Shown: piece after piece, positions 7,270-64,000 of the stretch
Numbering within the stretch: the first letter of the stretch is position 1
Layout: every line of letters starts with the position of its first letter
Assembly (NCBI GenBank): GCA_030581615.1
Contig: JAKTTT010000048.1
Span: 62,001 to 126,000, forward strand
DNA length: 64,000 nt
Direction: 5' to 3'
DNA from: Alloascoidea africana
Lineage: Eukaryota; Ascomycota; Alloascoideomycetes; Alloascoideales; Alloascoideaceae
Notes under the pieces: model-generated
The model's input: only the letters and a program-made list of their open reading frames with translations
What the model was told of the DNA's origin: nothing
The model's database searches: none
Position numbers and translations under genes: made by a program

Positions 7270-8964
7270 TTATCCGAAATGAACATTGAAGGCTTGTCCA
7301 CCCCTTCCTCCTTGGAAGAATTGGTGAAACTGTGATCCTCCACCTTGTTGTTGTTGGAAAAACGGATGTCCACCAAATGGACTCCCACCTTGCTTGAATC
7401 CTCCAGGTCTTGTACCTTGTTGCTGTTGCTCATGATTATTTGGATCGATGCCATTGTCAAACTGCTCTCGCTTTTCAGGATCACTGAGAACCTCGTAAGC
7501 TAGATTTATTTCTGACATTTTGGATTCCACCTCTTCTGGGCTCAGATCATTGCCCCTGTATTTATCTGGATGGAAGGTTTTCACCTTTTGCCTGTAAGCT
7601 TTTTTGATCTCGCGGTCATCTGCCTTTCGCGACACACCCAAGATCTTGTAATAGTCCTTGTTACCAGCCTGTCTCTTCAATCTATCTGCCTTCTGCAACA
7701 GTGAAATCACAGTTCTATTGTTTTTATCTTGCTCGTGCGCTTTCCGTAAAAGAGCCATTGCTTCATCGTATTTTTCTTGATCCAACAGACTAGAGCCAAT
7801 TTGAATCAGAGCGGGCATATAGTTATCGTCGTAATCAGAAAGGACCATTCCACAAACATCTTTAGCCAAGTCATCCTCTTGAAGATTAATGTGCATTTGG
7901 CACATTGCTTTATACAGGTTGGACTCAAGGGGCAACTTTTTCTTAATATTTACAAGAGAATAGGGCTTGATTAGTGATTCGTCGATTGTTTGCGTTAGCA
8001 TGTCAAGCTTATTTTGGTACTTTTGATTATCTCGTTTTTTCAATTTTGAACGATCCAACAGTTCCTGCTTCAAGACCCCCCACTCTGACGTTTTCAATCG
8101 AGCACCTTCATTTGCCTTTGTAACCAGATTCATTATTACAGCAAAATTCTTTGCAGACTTTGTCATCGCTTTGCACGGACCGTAGTCAAAATCGTAATGC
8201 AGGCACTTACGAAGATGCTTTTGGCCATTCTCGTATTCACCGAGGCCGAACAGATAAATCTTGATCAGTTTTTCGTAGGTTTCCATTTCGTTTGGTGCAA
8301 GCACTTCCAGCTTTATCAAGTCTGTAATCATTGACACCAGTGATTCCACGCCCGAATCTTGTTCATTTTTAACCGCCCGCTGCTGAAGAATTTCCAGTCG
8401 CATCTTTCTAAGAGCAGTAGATGTTGGACATGCGGAAAGCGCTTCTGCGAGAAGTGTTTCTGCAGAAGAATAGTCTTTCTTCTTGAGTGCGTCCTGGGCC
8501 TGACGCCACGTTTCTCGAATGTTCCGAATTCTCTCAGTGGCTTCTTTCTTGTATTCTTCATTATTCGGCATCTTTTGGAGGTAGCTCGCAGCCTCGTCAA
8601 GTTTTCCTTGAGCTATTAGCATTTCAAAAATTTGTTCGTGTGCCTTTGACTGTTTAGGATCAAGCTCAACGACTTTCTGAAAATCTCTTAGCGCCTGTGC
8701 ATCTCTACCCAGAGAGTATTGGGCTATGCCACGTTTGTAGTAAATGTTTGGTAGATAAATGGTCATATCGTCGTCGGATTTGTCTGATATCAGCTCGTCT
8801 AATGCCTGGACTCCTTCCTTCATCTGTCCCTGCGCTAGTAGTTTGTTGGCCAAGGTAAGCCGGGCCTGGAAGGAGAGGTCCAATGAATCTGACGATGACG
8901 ATCCTTGGACGCATGCTATCGGTGCAAGGAGTAGATATGTGAAATAGTATGGCAGGATTTTCAT
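7270..8964 (-). CDS. P58IPK/DNAJC3-like ER-lumenal TPR-J-domain co-chaperone
   Basis: 564 residues, intronless. An N-terminal signal peptide (residues 1 to about 21, hydrophobic core [14 protein letters not shown]) is followed by TPR-like helix pairs to about residue 425 ([39 protein letters not shown] and so on). A J domain follows ([20 protein letters not shown], with the HPD tripeptide in KTFHPDK), and the tail is Gly/Gln/Phe-rich. This is the DNAJC3/P58IPK layout: an ER-lumen protein that passes unfolded clients to BiP/Kar2 and is UPR-induced in animals. S. cerevisiae has no clear orthologue, while many other fungi do. No HDEL-type retention signal is seen at the C-terminus. It converges on ASE1 across a long spacer. 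Confidence 0.88.
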
Positions 8965-32256: not shown

Positions 32257-33921
32257 TTAGAACTTGGGTCCTGCAGCAATAACCTCTGCGGTTGCCTCGC
32301 CGCTGTATTTTTTAAAGTTATCGTCAAAGAGCTTACCAAGCTTGACAATCTCGCCTGTAAAGTCTGAGCCCTTCCAAGCAAGCTTGGGGTTGAGGATTTC
32401 GCGGGGCAGGTCGGTAGAGCCAGGGACGGAGGTTGGGATGGACAGGTTGAAGACTTCGAGTGTCTCAAACTCGGCCTTGGCGAGCTCGCCAGAGTGGATC
32501 GAGTCCAAAATGGCTCGGGTGTACTTGAGTGGACATCTCTTACCGCCGCTCTGGACGGACTGGCCGGTCCAGCCTGTGTTAAGCAGCCAGGCGTTGGCCT
32601 TGTGCTCGGTCATCTTCTTTGCGAGCATCTCTGCGTACTTCATTGGGTGGAGAACCAAGAATGGCTGGCCAAAGCAGGCGGAGAAGGTGGCCTCGGGCTC
32701 AGTGACACCTTCCTCGGTACCGGCCATCTTGGAAGTGTAACCGGAGATGAAGTGGTACATAACCTGTTCAGGAGTCAGGCGAGAGATAGGAGGCAGGACA
32801 CCACGGGCGTCACAGGTGAGCAGAATAATGTTGGAAGGATGGTTAGAAGAGAGACATGGGAGCTTGGCGTTGGGGATGTACTCGATGGGATAAGAACATC
32901 TTGTGTTTTCGGTGAGAGTGGAATCGTCGTAGTCGACTTCTCTGCTCTTGGGGTCAAAAACAACGTTCTCAAGGACGGATCCGAACTTGATGGCGTTGAA
33001 AATATCGGGCTCCTTTTCAGCAGAGAGACCAATGCACTTGGCGTAGCATCCTCCCTCGATGTTGAAGACACCATCGTTGGACCAACAGTGCTCATCGTCT
33101 CCGATAAGCAGTCTCTTGGGGTCAGCAGACAGAGTAGTCTTACCAGTACCGGAGAGACCAAAGAACAAGGTCACATCACCATCGTGGCCCTCGTTGGCAG
33201 AGGAGTGGAGAGTGAGAACATCGTATTTGACTGGCTGCAAGTAGAACATGACGGTGAAAATACCCTTTTTCATTTCACCAGCGTACTCGGTACCCAGGAT
33301 AAGCATCTCCATCTCTTTGAAGTTGATGGCGACGGATGTGGAAGAAGACATGCCAGAGGTGTATCTGTTGGCAGGGAAAGAGCCGGCATTGTAGATTGTA
33401 AAGTCTGGCTTGCCAAATTCCTCCAATTCCTTCTTGGAAGGTCGGATCAACATGTTTCTCATAAAGAGAGCGTGGTAAGCACGGGCGCACACGACTCTGA
33501 CCTTGAGTCTGTACTTGGGGTCCCAGCCAGCGTAGGCATCGACGACATAGATTCTTTCCTTGGTGTTGAGGTAGTCAATGGCACGCTCTCTGTTGATCAG
33601 CCAAGTCTGCTCAGAGACCTTCTTGTTGACAGGCCCCCACCAGACATGCTTGGAAGACGAGGGCTCATCGACAATACGCTTGTCCTTTGGCGACCGGCCA
33701 GTTTTGGCACCGGAGGAAGCGACGAGCGCGCCTGTGGAGTTTATAGCAGATCCGACCTCGTGGACCAAAGCGTCCTCGTACAATTGGGGCACGCTGGGGT
33801 TGTGCTCGATATGGACTCTGTTGTAGTCGATGTGAGCGGTCTCAAACAGCTCTTCTTCTAGCTCAGAGTGTGGTTCGACACCCTTTGGGTGCAACTTTGT
33901 GACGTTAACTGGAGGCGACAT
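32257..33921 (-). CDS. PCK1: ATP-dependent phosphoenolpyruvate carboxykinase
   Basis: 554 residues, intronless, very close to the ~549-residue yeast enzyme. Converts oxaloacetate and ATP to PEP, CO2 and ADP, the committed step of gluconeogenesis in the cytosol. Landmarks: [69 protein letters not shown], the P-loop [31 protein letters not shown] (metal site DD and EGG) and [29 protein letters not shown] box reads on the minus strand at 33993-34000, about 75 bp before the ATG. The coding region shows well-biased codons expected of a highly expressed gene. No sign of disruption. Confidence 0.97.
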
Positions 33922-46566: not shown

Positions 46567-47373
46567 ATGTTATCATCGAAACCAACAACACCAATGAATT
46601 TAACATCACTCGCCAAGATGAATCCTATTGCAATTCCCAAGGATGACCTCAAGGGGTCCTTCCTCTTTGGAGAGTCTGTTCTCGAGGGATTCGAGACCGA
46701 GAGGAGCTTTGTAAAGCAAGAAGAGGATCTTCCTCTAGGTTTTATTGAGTCCTCGGAGTTGTTTATGAATTCTGAGATTCCAGATGCTCCTGAGTTTACA
46801 CCTTCTACCGGAACCGTTTCCCCCTTGGAACTCTTACTCCCTTCCTCCGGTTCTCTCGATGCTGGAGACGCTGGCTTTGACGTGACCCCCATGTTTGGTG
46901 AGGTCGAGTTGGGAGAGGCTAATGATTGGCCTTCTCTTTTTGACGACTCGGTTCATAGTTTTGAAGCACCTACAGAAGAAACAAAATCTTCACTTACACC
47001 TGCTCCTGAGCCTGTGACTGTCAAGCCAGTCACACCAAAGTCTAGCCTGAAGAGAGCTGCTTCCGAAGTTGAAGGATTGATCACTCCCTCAGAATCACTT
47101 GAGTCCTCAAGATGCACTAAGAAAGACCATTTGGGAATCATTACCTACAACAGAAAGAAGAGAAACACTCCTCTACAGGATGTTTCGGTCCCAGAAGGTA
47201 GTGACGTCGCCGCTATCAAGCGAGCAAGAAATACAGAAGCTGCTCGTCGTTCAAGAGCAAGAAAGCTTGAGCGAATGAACCAGTTGGAAGAAAGGATTGA
47301 TGCTCTCTTAGCAAGGAACTCGGAGCTTGAAGCTGAAGTGATGAGACTGAAGAAGATTGTTCAGGAGGCTTGA
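46567..47373 (+). CDS. GCN4: Gcn4 bZIP activator of amino-acid biosynthesis
   Basis: 268 residues, close to the 281 of S. cerevisiae. The first ATG of the coding frame is at 46567; the frame is open further upstream but lacks an ATG. The N-terminal half is acidic with aromatic/hydrophobic clusters typical of activation domains (FLFGESVLEGFE, ANDWPSLFDDSVHSFE, the latter matching the Gcn4 central acidic WxxLF motif). A CDC4-type phosphodegron-like TP/SP region follows (KPVTPKSSLK, LITPSESLES). The bZIP is at the C-terminus: basic region AAIKRARNTEAARRSRARKL, then the zipper (ERMNQLEERIDALLARNSEL). The zipper leucine in MRLKK is written CTG, showing CTG is read as Leu. It binds TGAGTCA sites, of which three are seen in this window. 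Confidence 0.95.
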   Translation: MLSSKPTTPMNLTSLAKMNPIAIPKDDLKGSFLFGESVLEGFETERSFVKQEEDLPLGFIESSELFMNSEIPDAPEFTPSTGTVSPLELLLPSSGSLDAGDAGFDVTPMFGEVELGEANDWPSLFDDSVHSFEAPTEETKSSLTPAPEPVTVKPVTPKSSLKRAASEVEGLITPSESLESSRCTKKDHLGIITYNRKKRNTPLQDVSVPEGSDVAAIKRARNTEAARRSRARKLERMNQLEERIDALLARNSELEAEVMRLKKIVQEA

Positions 47374-52645: not shown

Positions 52646-55600
52646 CTAAAATACACCCAATGCATCCGAACCATCATCAATATAAAAATCATTCGTAACC
52701 AATTGAACAACAAGCTGTCTATCAGGAGCCAGAGGATGGGAGAGGCAAACCTTCACTTTATGATCAGAATCATCTAAAATCTTTATGTTTTTGCCCGTGA
52801 TTATTTGTTTAACTGACCCAACCGTCGGAAATAGAAGTTTATCATTTATCATCTTTAGGTTTGATTGGTAATTGTGCCCTCCTGAGGATTTCAATTTCAT
52901 TCTTTCTATTTTCCTCACCTCCAGAATGTCATCTCCAGCGACTATCAAAAAGCCGTCTTGATAAGCAACGGATTTTGCCTTTGCACTTAAATAAGTAATC
53001 ATCAATGGCCTGGAAATTAAACCAATATTGTTGCAGAAAATGGCAAACTCGTCATAACATAACAAAAATTCTCCATTTGAATTGTTCTCAGATAGTTTAA
53101 ACATTCCTAATGGGCGGCACCCAATTGAAGACGTTGCTGATGAGCTCAACTTCTTTCTAACGTACTCAAAACTAAAGTCCTTAGTGTTTTGAATTCTCTT
53201 CTTCTCCTCCATGGTAGTGTAGTTTACCATATCCGGTATACTCTGCGGCTGCAACACTTGCAGAGACATGACTTCAAATCCTTTATTACTGTGAACAGCA
53301 AACGTTTGGTTGAAAATCGTCATGTCATAACAGTCGCATTGAACATAAAACTTTTGGCCAAATCTGAAATAATCTGTCTTGCCATATCTTTTAGCAACAG
53401 ACTCATCAAACACAGGAATACAGACCTTAAACTTGGACGATGTGGTCACTGACTCCTTTTTCATGTAAAATAGTGTTAAGGAATTTTTGATCACACCCAT
53501 CCTGAAAAATGAAACATCATGTTTTGATATTTTCTTGCAAATAGCTGTTGCAGAAATCGCTTCATTCTTGAAACCCGCCATTACATCATCCAGCTGATAG
53601 TAAATCAAGTTTTTATCCGCAATCAAAACAACAATGTTAAAAGAAGGGAGTATCTCGATCTGCGTTATGGACCGTAAACTAAGAGTCCTCTTCCAACCTC
53701 TGGTATCTTCAGATTCAGCAATATACAACCCACTTTGTGAACCAAGAGCAACATACTCTACGCCTTTAAAACTGAACGACATGGCACAATAAAGCTTTGA
53801 CCAGACAATTGGTGGCTGGATCTTTATATTCTTTGGAGAGTCTGAATAGTCATTTCCATAGCTTTGCTCAATCTGTCGAATCGCAAAATCAATAGCATTT
53901 GCTTCAACATGAAACGGCACCTTCATAGGCTTATCTTGAGATTCGTAAGCAAAAGAATAGTCGGATATCACTTTTAGTCTAAATGGTTCAAAGTTTTTGG
54001 ACAAAATATCATAATTAAACTTTTTCTTCGCCTTCAAGATCATCTCTATCCAATTGTTACGTTCGGCAACTGTTTTTGTGTGAAAGGTAAACAACTGTCC
54101 ATGACGTCCTAGGTGTCGTATTTTGAAAACGTACTTGACATCAGATTCGTTGGCTCCTGAAGATCCATTTACTGAAGTATCTGAGGAGTTTGTTCTGGGT
54201 AAACTAGGGAATGCTTTTGTGACTGTTTTGGCGACTGTCACTTCATCAGACACTTGCTCTGCAACTAGCAGGGACATTGGAATAGGCTATTACAAATATT
54301 AGAGCTTTAGCTTTCAGAGGGAAGACAAAAAAACATACCTGTTCAACAACTTTATACCGAACATTGTTGGAATCTTTTAAAATATCACAGATCAACAAGA
54401 AATTGTCGAATAGAATAAGGTAGCAAGTTGAATAGTTATTCAACATGCCTTTTCTCAAAACGTTTCCGTGATACATCATGCACCTGTTGATATCCGAGAT
54501 GTTCAAATTCCTCATATCCTTGGGATCCTTAAAATGAATCTTGCTTAGCAGTGTGATGAATTCTTGCTTTTTCTCGCCTTGTTCAAAATGACTGTTTATC
54601 TTAGATGAAAGCTTCAGACATTCATTTATCGCCTTGCCCAAGAGCTCATACTGAGGGTCGGTCTCACGGGTTTTACCTTTTATTGCCTCAAGCATAATCT
54701 TGTATTGAAGTACATGGCCAATGATGCCAGTGGAAAACAATCTGTTATGGTCAAGACCAAGAGCTTTCACTCTTTTGTCTTCATCCATCATTTTAAGCCA
54801 ATTGATAAAACGGCTTTCTGGTTTAGTTTTTTCTGTTTTGATATAATCAATAACTTTGCTGAGCCCCTTGGCATATTTTAGATAGGGCTGTTCTGCTTCT
54901 TTTGCCCAATCGAGAAAAATGTCACCAACACCTTCCATGAATTTGCCTTGCAACAGTTGCCTTTGAAGCAAGGGCTCTAATAGTTTCTTCTGGTGGAGAT
55001 CTAGAATAGGAATAATGTTCCCAAAAGCGCTTTGCCAATAGCTCTTTTGGTTAGCCACCACAGCAGGAACCACCTTCTTCAAATTCTCTCCATAAACTTG
55101 TAAGAAGAGTCTATTATCTCTTAGGAAGCGCTTTTCACCTTTGATTACATCATAGGTATGGGATTGTTTCTTTACAATATCAAGTCCCAACTCTTCAATC
55201 TCTTCTTTAGTGATTGACCAGTAAGAGACCCAGTCTTTTTCAAATTCCGAGATGTCTGATCCAGGAAAGTCTGATTTGGTAGTAGAGTTTATTTGTTTTA
55301 ATTTGAGAGGTATTGTTCTTGAGCATCTTGTACTATAACATCTTCCAGAAATGTGAGTGCCAGTATGTGATTTGACCGCGTAGCACCCTTTTCCGGTTAA
55401 AATGGGTAACACTCCAGATATCAGCAATCCGGGATAATAAGTCAGAAGCATTGCTTCATCATCATCCTCTGCCATTGCAATTGCAGCATAATTTTCTTGT
55501 GTTTTTTGTTCTATTGATAGCGCTCCTGCATCCATTAACTCGTTCAAAATTACTCTAGAAAACTGTTCTGCAATGGCATTGTTGAGTGTAGGAATGGAAT

Positions 55601-57221
55601 GTGTGATGAGCCCTGCAATTGCCAGTTTCAACTGGAGCTTGGACGTTTCAATTGTGTAATCCCAGATTAGTCCTAGCCATTTATAGATCCCGCTTAATGA
55701 CCAAATCTCTTTACACTTTTCGTACTGTTCACTAGACAGCTTCTGCGAGTTGAAGCATTTTTTGGCCTCGGGTATCCGTGGTAAATCAAGATTGACCGAC
55801 GAGACAGTGGTATATTCAGAATGGAAAGTTGATTTGCTTGTTGTTGATGACATTGAATACGTCCTCTCGGGACGTACTGAGGGCGGTTGGAGGAAAGAAG
55901 ATATGCTTGGAGTTGATCTTGAAGGGACCGCAGGCCGCAAGCGATCAAAAGAAGCCACTTTTTGCAAAGAATGATTTTGTGGTGCAAAGACATTACCTGA
56001 TGTCAAATTGCTTGCGAGTGGTGGGGATTTGGGAACAGTTCTGCGTGGGGGTAATACAATTTTCTTCTTTGGCTTTATGTCCGAGTTTTCATTGTTAGTG
56101 TCCTTTTTTACATGATTGGTCTTTTCCATTGCATCCGAAAGGACATGGGAATCGCTTTTAGCAGAACTTTGAGAACTATTGTTGGAAGAATGGGGGGAAG
56201 TTTTTGGATCGAGAGAAGTGTAAGAGGGTTCGAATTTTGGCAGAACAGGAAGCGAGATAACCTCATTATGTTTTTCGGAAAAATTATGTACGGGTCTTGA
56301 ATCTTCCGGTTTGGAAGTTGAGGCAGTTAGGGAAGAGGATGCTGAAGATTTTCGAAACGAGGAAGTTTCGAGAGGAGGCAGTGATGGCAACTCCAGGTCA
56401 CCAATCTGAACCGAGGTTTGATAACCATCTACAGGAGTTGGCAGTTCGTGCTTTGGATGTGTTGCATGTAGAGAGTTTGAAAATGACGATTTGTAAGAGG
56501 TTGCTGTAGATGGTATGCTGTCTGTAATAGATTTTGAACTCAAAGAACTAATAGAATCATCGTACTTGTGCAAAGGAGAGGAATCATAATGTACAGGTTC
56601 TTCCTCCTGGAAAGACGATTGCGGTTTTATATGAGACCTTTCCTCAATCGGGGGAATAGAGGGCAAATCAAACCTGTTCAGCGGCAGTGCAACATCTTCA
56701 TGAACACCTGTGGAAAGAGGAGGAGGTCGCCTTTTCATCGTTCTCCCTGACGAGGTGGTATGCGATCTGGACGTGGCGGCGGGTATCAGATTCCTTCTAC
56801 TGATGGTATCGTATCTGGATCCAGGAAGTGGGATTGAATGTGTTTGATTTGGCTTTGGAGGAAGCATAGGGGGCTGACGAGGACCTATTAGCCTTGTAGA
56901 AGCTTCTCGTGCCGGCAGGGTCCGGTCATCGCGCGGGAGGGAGGCCAAATCCAGACCTAGAAACTCGCTTACCGCCCTGCTCGCTTCGTTTTGTTTCAAA
57001 AACTTTGGTGGCTTTACTGGCAATGGAGGTGGATTATTTCGTTGTATGCTGCCAAACTCTTGGATTCCACAGTTCGCGTTCGGCGCTCGGCCGTAAACAT
57101 CGTGTTGCTGCCCGTTCAACGTGGCAGTCCTGGTGCTGTTCCCATTGGCATAGTGCGAGGGTCTCTCTCCATAGTAGGCCGAATAGAAGGGTCTCTGATC
57201 GTAACCATGGGGAGCAGACAT
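52646..57221 (-). CDS. ROM2: Rom1/Rom2-type Rho1 guanine nucleotide exchange factor, two exons
   Basis: Exons 54339-57221 and 52646-54286 join to 1507 residues. The N-terminal ~500 residues are disordered, Ser/Pro-rich with poly-Pro patches (NPPPLPVKPPKF). A DEP-like domain follows (GIYKWLGLIWDYTIETSKLQ), then the DH (RhoGEF) domain (YWSITKEEIEELGLDIVKKQ, QSAFGNIIPILDLHQKKLLE, GLDHNRLFSTGIIGHVLQYK), a PH domain that spans the intron (VVEQ/PIPMSLLVAEQV, VFKIRHLGRHGQLFTFHTKT), and a CNH domain to the end (WSKLYCAMSFSFKGVEYVAL onward). This is the Rom2/Rgf layout: GTP loading of Rho1 at the plasma membrane for glucan synthase and Pkc1 signalling. The 52-nt intron has a GTATGT 5' site. Rom1 and Rom2 cannot be told apart here. 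Confidence 0.93.
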
Positions 57222-62598: not shown

Positions 62599-62675
62599 AA
62601 CCAGTCCCTTCCCCCCCCCCCCCGTCCCACCTACACCTTTTCTAGGCATTTGTGAACCTACTGTTATTGACACAA

Positions 62676-63748
62676 ATGATGGGCGCTTCTACTGATGGCT
62701 CACGTACCTCTGAGCCCTCCCCGATACCTTCCGTGCTAGACCCATCATCTGTTGCTTGGCCGTCCACGGACAACAAGAGGAAAGATGATGACTCCTCAAT
62801 GATCCTGCTTAATGGCTCTCTGGAGCCCCGCAAGCGTGCTCGAACCGACGATGAAAAAGAACAGCGGAGAGTCCAACGTATAATGAGAAATCGCCAGGCT
62901 GCCCACGCTTCCAGAGAAAAGAAACGTAAACACATGGAGGACCTAGAGTCCCAGTGCTCGCATTTGACTACAGAAAACAGATTGCTGCAGGATGAACTGG
63001 ACAAGACCAAGATAAAGCAGATCTCTTTGATCAGACAAACAAATTCCATGGTTAGCCAAATCAAACAATTAACGTCCATTATTCAGCAGGCAACTGGCAT
63101 CAAAATCCCAGAAGTCGAATTCAATACCCCAACCATATCTCTGAAAAGAGTCCCTTCTTCCCCCATCCTCTCCCCTTCCCCTGGCTCCTCCGGTTCTTCT
63201 CCCCCATGTATCGATTCAGACTCGTCCTCCAGTTCTGTTGTCACCCCTCCTTCATCATCAGACTCCTCGGATCTGGACCTCATGTCCTCCAAGCTTTTGT
63301 CCGGTAATGAGCAAACCTCCTCCAATCTTGCCAAGCGACCGCGTTATCCAGCAGAGATAATGCAACGCTTTAATGCCTACCCGCTGCGTCGGCTCTTGAA
63401 CAAGATGAGAGTGTCGTTTGCAATCAATTACCTTTTGATTTGCTTTTTGATGGCCCAATTGATGCCAATCTTGACAACGAGATTTTTTCAACAGCATTTC
63501 TTGAAAAGCTTGGTCCACAACAAACAGGCAATGAACAACTACTTGAACTCTCAACTCCAAACCTACTCGAGGAAAAAGACTTGCCAGAAGTTGAACAAAG
63601 AACTACCCCCGATGAACCTGGATCTAACCAATCATCTATCTTCGACGAGCTATTTTTTGAAAAAGACTTCGAATTATTTGCAAGTGCTGAGAGCAGAATT
63701 ACAAAGCCGATCTTTAAGGAAGAACTCCTGACCAGTACTAGCGTTTAG
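62676..63748 (+). CDS. HAC1: Hac1 bZIP transcription factor of the unfolded-protein response (Ire1-spliced)
   Basis: Spliced product: 62676-63351 joined to 63384-63748, 346 residues. bZIP: EEKEQRRVQRIMRNRQAAHA-type basic region (residues about 65-90, with NRQAAHASREKKRKH) and a zipper (MEDLESQCSHLTTENRLLQD). A Ser/Pro-rich middle follows. Two hairpins with CNG/CNG loops (63341-63363 and 63375-63393) mark Ire1 cuts after 63351 and 63383, removing 32 nt and shifting the frame: YPA/ASALEQDESVVCNQL, then FDLLFDGPIDANLDNEIFST to the acidic, aromatic end FDELFFEKDFELFASAESRI and TSTSV. The unspliced frame instead continues to 63731 (351 residues) with a hydrophobic tail. Tandem ATGs at 62676 and 62679; either may start. 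Activates ER chaperone genes; the DNAJC3-like gene in this window is a plausible target. Confidence 0.95.
63341..63363 (+). promoter_or_regulatory. HAC1: HAC1 5' Ire1 cleavage hairpin
   Basis: An 8-bp stem (63341-63348 with 63356-63363, one G-U pair) closes a 7-nt loop CAGCAGA, fitting the Ire1 consensus CNG/CNGN. Cleavage is expected after G63351. Confidence 0.88.
63352..63383 (+). other. HAC1: 32-nt unconventional HAC1 intron
   Basis: The segment between the two predicted Ire1 cuts. Its length (32 = 3x10+2) shifts the reading frame, and the shifted frame is the one encoding an acidic activator-like C-terminus. It is far shorter than the 252-nt S. cerevisiae intron and close to the 20-32 nt introns known from filamentous fungi and some basal yeasts. 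It lacks GT...AG ends, so it is not spliceosomal. Confidence 0.88.
63375..63393 (+). promoter_or_regulatory. HAC1: HAC1 3' Ire1 cleavage hairpin
   Basis: A 6-bp stem with one internal mismatch (63375-63380 with 63388-63393) closes a 7-nt loop CCGCTGC, again CNG/CNGN. Cleavage is expected after G63383. Confidence 0.82.
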
Positions 63749-63824
63749 TATTGCTACTACCAATTTTTTTTTTGTTAAACTTGGTCTACTGCTTACACTC
63801 TCTAGCGCTACAATGCAATCGAAA

Positions 63825-63971
63825 CTAACCGCTAGTGTTTGAAACGGTCTCTTTTGTTGTTTTCTTTTGGATTAATGGCTTCAAAGGCGCGTTACCTAAA
63901 ACTGCGACGGGACCATTATCCGAAGACTCTTGAGAGAACATTTCATGTACTTGGCCTATTGTTCCGATGCA
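63825..63971 (-). CDS. Possible 3' exon of a minus-strand gene (partial, right edge)
   Basis: A minus-strand frame with no stop from about 63971 down to TAG at 63825-63827 reads QVHEMFSQESSDNGPVAVLG then NAPLKPLIQKKTTKETVSNT SG. Just upstream is CGCTAAT followed 11 nt later by TAG, which could be a branch site and 3' splice site (exon then starting at 63955). The peptide looks coding but is not recognised. It would converge on HAC1. Confidence 0.35.
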   Translation of the reverse strand, partial: CIGTIGQVHEMFSQESSDNGPVAVLGNAPLKPLIQKKTTKETVSNTSG

Positions 63972-64000
63972 TTAGCGCTATTGTTGAAAGCATTGTCCAG

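Follow-up and report, generated by a model that had tools for sequence, protein, structure and literature searches.

A yeast HAC1 gene with a second open frame and a hydrophobic tail past its candidate Ire1 intron

In animals, plants and fungi the mRNA of a bZIP transcription factor of the unfolded protein response (UPR) is spliced by Ire1. The HAC1/XBP1 mRNA is recruited in baker's yeast via an element in its 3'UTR and in animals via a hydrophobic peptide of the unspliced frame. For animal XBP1u a hydrophobic region, HR2, has been described which brings the XBP1 mRNA to the ER co-translationally (PMC9217131, PMC4138184). In this work we have analysed a HAC1 gene in a stretch of 64,000 nucleotides from Alloascoidea africana, here called the window. 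Like animal XBP1u, the gene has a short intron, predicted to be removed by Ire1, with a frame switch, a hydrophobic region in the unspliced form only, and overlapping frames (PMC9217131, PMC4138184, PMC7580959); unlike XBP1u, it also has a candidate yeast-type docking element in the 3'UTR. In plant bZIP60, too, a membrane segment is present only in the unspliced form, although that segment is described as a single transmembrane domain, whereas the one in the window is a prediction (PMC4891664). With S. cerevisiae HAC1 the window gene has in common a bZIP domain, splicing of the mRNA by Ire1 (predicted here) and a docking element in the 3'UTR (a candidate here), but the 252-nt intron of baker's yeast itself contains the stop, and the last 10 residues of its Hac1u have been proposed to be a degron (PMC8002603, PMC6627864). 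A long alternative unspliced tail is also found in the HacAu/Hac1u proteins of filamentous ascomycetes (Verticillium, Aspergillus, Penicillium). The V. dahliae Hac1u has 526 aa against 417 aa for the spliced protein and was not detected on immunoblots (PMC8071499). There the unspliced form is much the longer one, whereas the two tails of the window gene are nearly equal in length and overlap almost wholly. For A. fumigatus, tethering of the mRNA to the ER by the unspliced hacA product, or further roles of this product, has been raised as a question (PMC3943501, PMC7580959).

The gene lies at 62676-63748 on the plus strand with its start codon at 62676. Its bZIP domain (Pfam), near relatives named HAC1 among its protein matches and its place in the tree identify it as HAC1, and the closest named proteins among the best 120 of 512 matches come from Yarrowia and Sugiyamaella (both named HAC1) and from Blastobotrys. 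Its parts are as follows.

62676-63351, plus strand: HAC1 exon 1, common to both products, with the start codon and the basic region and leucine zipper (residues about 60-112; Pfam bZIP_1 and bZIP_2 above cut-off)
63342-63362, plus strand: 5' Ire1 hairpin, stem CGTTATC paired with GATAATG, 7-nt loop CAGCAGA, cut after 63351; read from the sequence, with the hairpin formed in the predicted fold
63352-63383, plus strand: candidate non-conventional intron of 32 nt, placed from the sequence
63375-63393, plus strand: 3' Ire1 hairpin around the loop CCGCTGC, with the cut after 63383; it extends over the first codons of the unspliced tail
63384-63748, plus strand: acidic, aromatic tail of the spliced frame (LPFDLLFDG, FDELFFEKDFELF), presumed to be the activation region
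63384-63731, plus strand: unspliced-frame tail, 115 sense codons and TGA as codon 116, +1 relative to the spliced frame
63411-63470, plus strand: hydrophobic run VSFAINYLLICFLMAQLMPI of the unspliced frame, lying inside the frame of the spliced tail, with RRLLNKMR just before it
63886-63908, plus strand: GGCGCG-N12-GCGAC in the 3'UTR, candidate 3' bipartite element for Ire1 docking

The loop of the 5' hairpin fits CNG/CNGN (the slash marks the cut), which we take to be the Ire1-site consensus. The borders CAG/CAGAGATAATG...CCG/CTGCG give a length of 32 nt, and the pair of hairpins with CNG/CNG loops around a frame-shifting intron, as expected of a HAC1 gene, was found both in the sequence and by folding; splicing of this intron is predicted from the sequence. 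The spliced product would have 346 aa and end at the stop at 63746-63748, and the unspliced product 351 aa, with the stop TGA at 63729-63731. The initial annotation of this DNA, which was made from the letters alone, had both frames open for about 116 codons past the intron and a hydrophobic run in the unspliced one; this holds with 115 sense codons, codon 116 being the TGA. The acidic and aromatic composition which it ascribed to the spliced tail was likewise borne out, the activation role being presumed. The best 19-residue Kyte-Doolittle mean (KD19) of the run VSFAINYLLICFLMAQLMPI is 2.01, and the hydrophobic region is confined to the unspliced frame, as it is in XBP1u. In an AlphaFold2 model of the unspliced product, which is poor overall (mean pLDDT 61), a helix is predicted at residues 235-307, with pLDDT 71-74 over residues 241-260.

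We propose, giving it a little less than an even chance, that this HAC1 orthologue is dual-coded past its Ire1 intron, with a hydrophobic tail on Hac1u in unstressed cells and an activation tail after splicing. According to this model, the unspliced mRNA would be translated without stress to the 351-aa Hac1u, the tail of which would consist of a hydrophobic, largely helical segment that follows basic residues. Under stress Ire1 would cut out the 32 nt, and the same nucleotides, read one base earlier, would then give the acidic, aromatic activation tail, which lacks the hydrophobic run. Translation of the unspliced mRNA, on which the model depends, is something that we infer without proof, and the immunoblot result for V. 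dahliae Hac1u counts against the model. What we show here, by comparison of sequences, is the two frames, the splice signals and a conservation of the unspliced frame which goes beyond the constraint from the spliced one; targeting to the ER by the putative membrane-seeking tail is plausible, and an effect of the tail on splicing would be a further step of inference.

In one sequence, an open hydrophobic frame is only mildly unusual, and it is through comparison that it exceeds chance. The chance of the open frame had been put at well under 1 percent at the outset, which was too strong: openness by itself has a chance of 4-12%, and it is jointly with hydrophobicity that the value falls to about 0.5%. 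Among the 21 ORFs of the window that we took as genes, 413 of 10180 stretches of 116 codons (4.1%) are open in the +1 frame. Resampling of synonymous codons of the spliced tail left 115 codons open with P 0.119 (0.041 if 116 are demanded, one above the actual tail) and gave a KD19 at least as high with P 0.023 and both together with P 0.0046. Could the open frame and its run then be a by-product of the codons of a selected activation motif, plus chance and common ancestry? With a shift of one base, F, L and D codons that end in T yield L, I and M, and the run overlies LPFDLLFDG, which is conserved in the spliced frame and identical in the paralogue L004 described below. The mean maximal KD19 of the synonymous resamplings is already 1.0-1.3, and there are 11 +1-frame runs of at least 115 codons in the same 21 ORFs, of which three have a KD19 of at least 1.9. 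The comparison with related genes bears directly on this explanation.

The host genome, searched over 23.2 Mb in 138 contigs, contains five HAC1-like genes, that of the window and L002, L003, L004 and L005. We place introns of 41 nt in L002, 26 nt in L003 and 29 nt in L004, all with remainder 2 modulo 3, past which the unspliced frame is open for 21, 18 and 51 codons, respectively. The KD19 of the unspliced tail is 1.92 in L004 and peaks at -0.14 in L002, and the tail of L003 is too short for a 19-residue window. Relatives with the same intron but frequent stops in the unspliced frame had been named in the initial annotation as a refutation of an XBP1u-like tail, and for L002 and L003 this refutation applies. 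As L002 and L003 are without a long open unspliced frame, the frame is dispensable for an Ire1-spliced HAC1, and its loss there counts against a general need for the tail. We also observed that about 30 nt (GATTTCGAGGCGCGTTTCGTACTGCGACTG) are identical between the 3'UTRs of L002 and L003, although the synonymous sites of their exon 1 are saturated.

The window gene and L004 were aligned without gaps from the end of the intron. Our main tests leave out the first five tail codons because they belong to the 3' splice hairpin, and RRLL was discarded as protein evidence since its codons overlap that hairpin. The codon ranges computed were 0-15, 15-30, 30-45, 0-30, 0-36, 0-42, 5-15, 5-30, 5-36 and 5-42 as well as distal ones, and the P values are uncorrected across these ranges. 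Over the first 36 spliced codons the two genes share 15 amino acids, 12 of them with the same codon where 5.1 would be expected (P 1.6e-4), and over codons 5-36 the codon is the same at 11 of 13 shared amino acids (4.7 expected, P 2e-4). When the spliced proteins were kept fixed and synonymous codons resampled, 13 of 25 unspliced residues over codons 5-30 were identical against 6.1-6.3 expected, and the unspliced BLOSUM score was 58 against 9.1-12.4 expected, with P at most 3e-4 in either case. In exon 1, used as a control, the codon is kept at 17 of 64 shared amino acids, compared to 20.2 expected at saturation, which means that the synonymous sites of this pair are saturated there. The five other exon-1 controls gave 12/46 (15.4 expected), 27/86 (27.1), 38/86 (28.5), 41/130 (42.0) and 22/60 (19.6); the pair of the window gene and L002, with 38/86, is the only one of the six with an excess of shared codons. 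That pair, above saturation in exon 1 as well, agrees with a by-product of codon use and ancestry. Such an origin is nevertheless unlikely in our view, because the excess persists with the spliced protein held fixed, and the exon-1 synonymous sites of the window gene and L004 are saturated. Conservation might also be mimicked if the window gene and L004 had undergone gene conversion or had recently exchanged sequence locally, since both genes are in one genome and their differences are spread across the three codon positions (22, 19 and 21 identical bases, respectively, in the first 30 codons). After an exchange, however, differences should pile up at spliced-synonymous sites, which they do not, and the same pattern is seen in P0001, a protein from another genome, so that we regard conversion as the most improbable of the explanations considered.

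P0001 is a 329-aa protein encoded on an 8753-base NCBI contig and was found by a search with the unspliced protein of the window gene, to which it is identical at 142 of 319 aligned positions from the bZIP domain to near the end. It also has the bZIP domain nearest to that of the window gene (70% identity over 105 columns). Its unspliced-frame tail is open for 108 residues and keeps the hydrophobic run, with a KD19 of 1.65. Scans of viral contigs with P0001, and of genome contigs with the window gene and P0001, gave no match, and P0001 was therefore usable, and compared, as a protein only. An unspliced residue fixes the second base of its codon, and in the spliced codon this base takes the wobble position; positions with serine in P0001 were left out because serine does not fix this base. 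Over codons 5-30, the spliced-wobble base is the same in P0001 and the window gene at 19 of 24 positions against 10.0 expected with a wholly conserved spliced protein (P 9e-5), a value that takes saturation of synonymous sites between the two as an assumption. With an eight-fold T bias, 14.4 would be expected (P 9e-3). Over codons 5-42 the count is 26 of 36 against 15.1 (P 1.2e-4). Unspliced identity over codons 5-30 is 14 of 25; the inferred identity in the spliced frame is expected at 8.3, and the highest value among 5000 draws was 14. The excess is most marked at codons 15-30, where 13 of 15 wobble bases are the same. It is non-significant at codons 5-15 taken separately (6 of 9, P 0.17) and is weak at the distal codons 80-116 (15 of 28 against 11.3, P 0.10), where the gapped alignment was built in the unspliced frame and is biased towards it. 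Between L004 and P0001 the wobble base is the same at 16 of 24 positions (10.6 expected, P 0.016).

In the tree, the window gene, L004 and P0001 form a clade with support 100/98, although the bootstrap had not fully settled, and this clade sits within a seven-row clade together with L002, L003, P0002 and P0013 (support 98/99). A protein search with only the tail gave 50 candidates and no match at E up to 10. The check suggested at the outset, whether the unspliced frame is conserved beyond what the spliced frame imposes, thus came out positive against L004 (P below 1e-3) and P0001 (19 of 24), and so did that of hydrophobicity (KD19 2.01 in the window gene, 1.92 in L004 and 1.65 in P0001). The unspliced frame is probably a selected coding sequence in one sub-clade; as in XBP1u, it appears to be under selection as protein, a result carried by L004 and P0001 only and, for P0001, with saturation assumed. 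Is it possible that the synonymous sites are instead held by an RNA structure or signal beside the splice site? The 3' hairpin does span the first tail codons, but the excess remains without the first five of them and peaks further on, at codons 15-30 in the comparison with P0001. Three stretches that we folded gave z-scores of 0.36, -0.12 and 0.87, and Rfam gave no family at its cut-off in 62600-64000. On the z-scores we discarded RNA structure as the cause, and structure and signal taken as one explanation seem very unlikely to us.

It may also be that the unspliced tail is indeed a selected protein but acts as a degron, or makes a dominant-negative Hac1u which pairs with Hac1 and removes it, with no targeting of the mRNA. 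All the evidence for coding conservation fits such a role equally well, and there are precedents: a degron has been proposed at the end of the Hac1u of baker's yeast, and XBP1(U) makes XBP1(S) decay faster (PMC8002603); a repressor role has been proposed for Cib1u in U. maydis (PMC6988420). A candidate docking element is present in the 3'UTR anyway, and the paralogue L005, in which splicing has been lost, would act only in trans. In our judgement, however, a degron needs less than this long run, which is of transmembrane character (KD19 2.01) and preceded by basic residues. We consider this role doubtful, though a serious possibility, and a hydrophobic, membrane-seeking tail on Hac1u is the simplest reading of the sequences, even if a degron or repressor accounts for the conservation just as well.

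We presume that the 3'UTR element of the window gene resembles the 3'BE of S. cerevisiae. GGCGCG followed by GCGAC within 60 nt also occurs in the 3'UTRs of L002, L003 and L004. The Ire1 RNase domain PF06479, expected in a genome with a HAC1 gene, has one match in the genome (E 8.5e-48), in a protein whose linker has the basic stretch KKRRKRGTRGGKK. A basic box in the linker of Ire1 has been described for fungi (PMC4279078), and the box KKRRKRGTRGGKK and the candidate docking element appear to be like those of baker's yeast. Given the two together, recruitment of the mRNA may not need a peptide signal. As a separate observation, this single Ire1 RNase match stands against five HAC1-like genes in a 23-Mb genome. 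The longest pairing between the intron and the 5'UTR is 8 nt. When Watson-Crick pairs alone are counted and the 5'UTR is limited to its last 150 nt, this is above all 100 shuffles; when G-U pairs are allowed, or 300 or 500 nt are taken, it is not beyond shuffles. Some block to translation of the unspliced mRNA may come from this pairing. Release of an anchored form by a site-2 protease, as for bZIP60 or ATF6, was rejected, a six-frame search of the genome for PF02163 having given 0 matches.

More questions are raised by the fifth HAC1-like gene.

G000:C2, 1399-2346: L005, HAC1-like gene in which the 3' splice site and the GGCGCG...GCGAC element are lost, with a 162-codon tail in the unspliced frame only

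The 5' loop is kept in L005 (CAG/CAGC), though folding predicts no hairpin around it, and the position of the 3' splice site reads CAA/CAC. There is no other CNGCNG downstream in the 3231-nt locus, and in the longer locus L007 the next one is about 1.3 kb past the stop of the ORF. The GGCGCG...GCGAC motif was not found in the 3'UTR, and GCGAC is absent from the locus of the gene. The frame which matches the spliced tail ends after 54 codons and is without the activation motif, whereas the unspliced tail of 162 codons has a moderately hydrophobic stretch with a KD19 peak of 1.59. This tail is weakly similar to those of P0001 (P 0.016) and L004 (P 0.022); its similarity to the window gene is at chance (P 0.27), and we make no claim that its homology to the tail of the window gene is proven. 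L005 took no resolved position in the tree, and by eye no tail like it is present among 154 proteins (the best 120 of 512 and best 120 of 363 matches). From its sequence L005 appears to be a copy of HAC1 that is locked into the unspliced state. Perhaps there is a fungal counterpart of XBP1u, with a dual-coded ER-targeting tail selected in one yeast lineage, in which after duplication to five genes L005 turned into a HAC1u that is always unspliced, is bound to the membrane and regulates the other copies; we hold this larger picture to be rather unlikely.

The initial annotation had taken a yeast XBP1u-like, dual-coded tail to be new, which is too strong as regards long tails. These have been published for V. 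dahliae (PMC8071499) and are present in database records of Lipomyces, and tethering has been raised as a question for A. fumigatus (PMC3943501, PMC7580959). In the same 154 proteins, 100 have a peptide like that of the 5' splice site, some of them spurious; 39 of the 100 tails that follow are under 19 residues and 9 have a KD19 of at least 1.6. Among the proteins listed, tails of Geotrichum, Blastobotrys, Sugiyamaella, Trichomonascus and Yarrowia are short or non-hydrophobic. Of 19 records that we chose by name and tail for a further check, 13 have a KD19 of 1.6 or more no further than 86 residues from the splice-site peptide: 12 of the 15 from Lipomyces and Dipodascopsis, with one Lipomyces-like record in this group, and one of two from Penicillium; Umbilicaria (1.40) and Villophora (0.63) are below this value. 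The Lipomyces and Dipodascopsis records, in which the unspliced frame is read, are mostly like the window gene in having a hydrophobic run soon past the intron, but their tails have 209-278 aa in 14 of the 15 and by eye no clear similarity to the window tail. A distal block around RHMALA...ATGL is common to several of them (P0065, P0068, P0077, P0082, P0090, P0103 and others). The XBP1u-like reading thus stands in part, as the run and the frame are conserved in L004 and P0001, but it is no general rule for HAC1, with stops in L002 and L003 and 9 of 100 database tails at a KD19 of at least 1.6. In open-access titles and abstract openings, a search field that leaves most of the subscription literature outside, we found no yeast Hac1u described as having a hydrophobic or dual-coded tail. 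Such a tail may be new in a yeast, long unspliced tails being known in filamentous ascomycetes and present in Lipomyces. By analogy, the tail would plausibly work like XBP1u. If this is true, a HAC1 with a candidate 3'UTR element, an Ire1 with a basic box and a conserved hydrophobic tail would show that 3'UTR docking and recruitment by a peptide can coexist in one yeast; among yeast exons, that of the window gene is a clear candidate for dual coding, and it makes membrane tethering by fungal HacAu/Hac1u directly testable.

Some other genes of the window should be mentioned. A second bZIP protein (Pfam bZIP), Gcn4-like by eye, is encoded at 46567-47373 on the plus strand. On the minus strand, the ORF at 7270-8964 has TPR repeats together with a DnaJ domain, and its N terminus looks by eye like a signal sequence; it is perhaps an ER J-protein of the p58IPK kind, a typical UPR-linked chaperone. 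The ORF of 340 aa at 32839-33861 on the plus strand is antisense to a PEPCK gene and is probably a by-product of codon use. Two overlapping ORFs on the minus strand, 52646-54277 and 54246-57221, have PH/CNH and RhoGEF domains and probably belong to a single Rho-GEF gene that is interrupted by an intron or a frame error.
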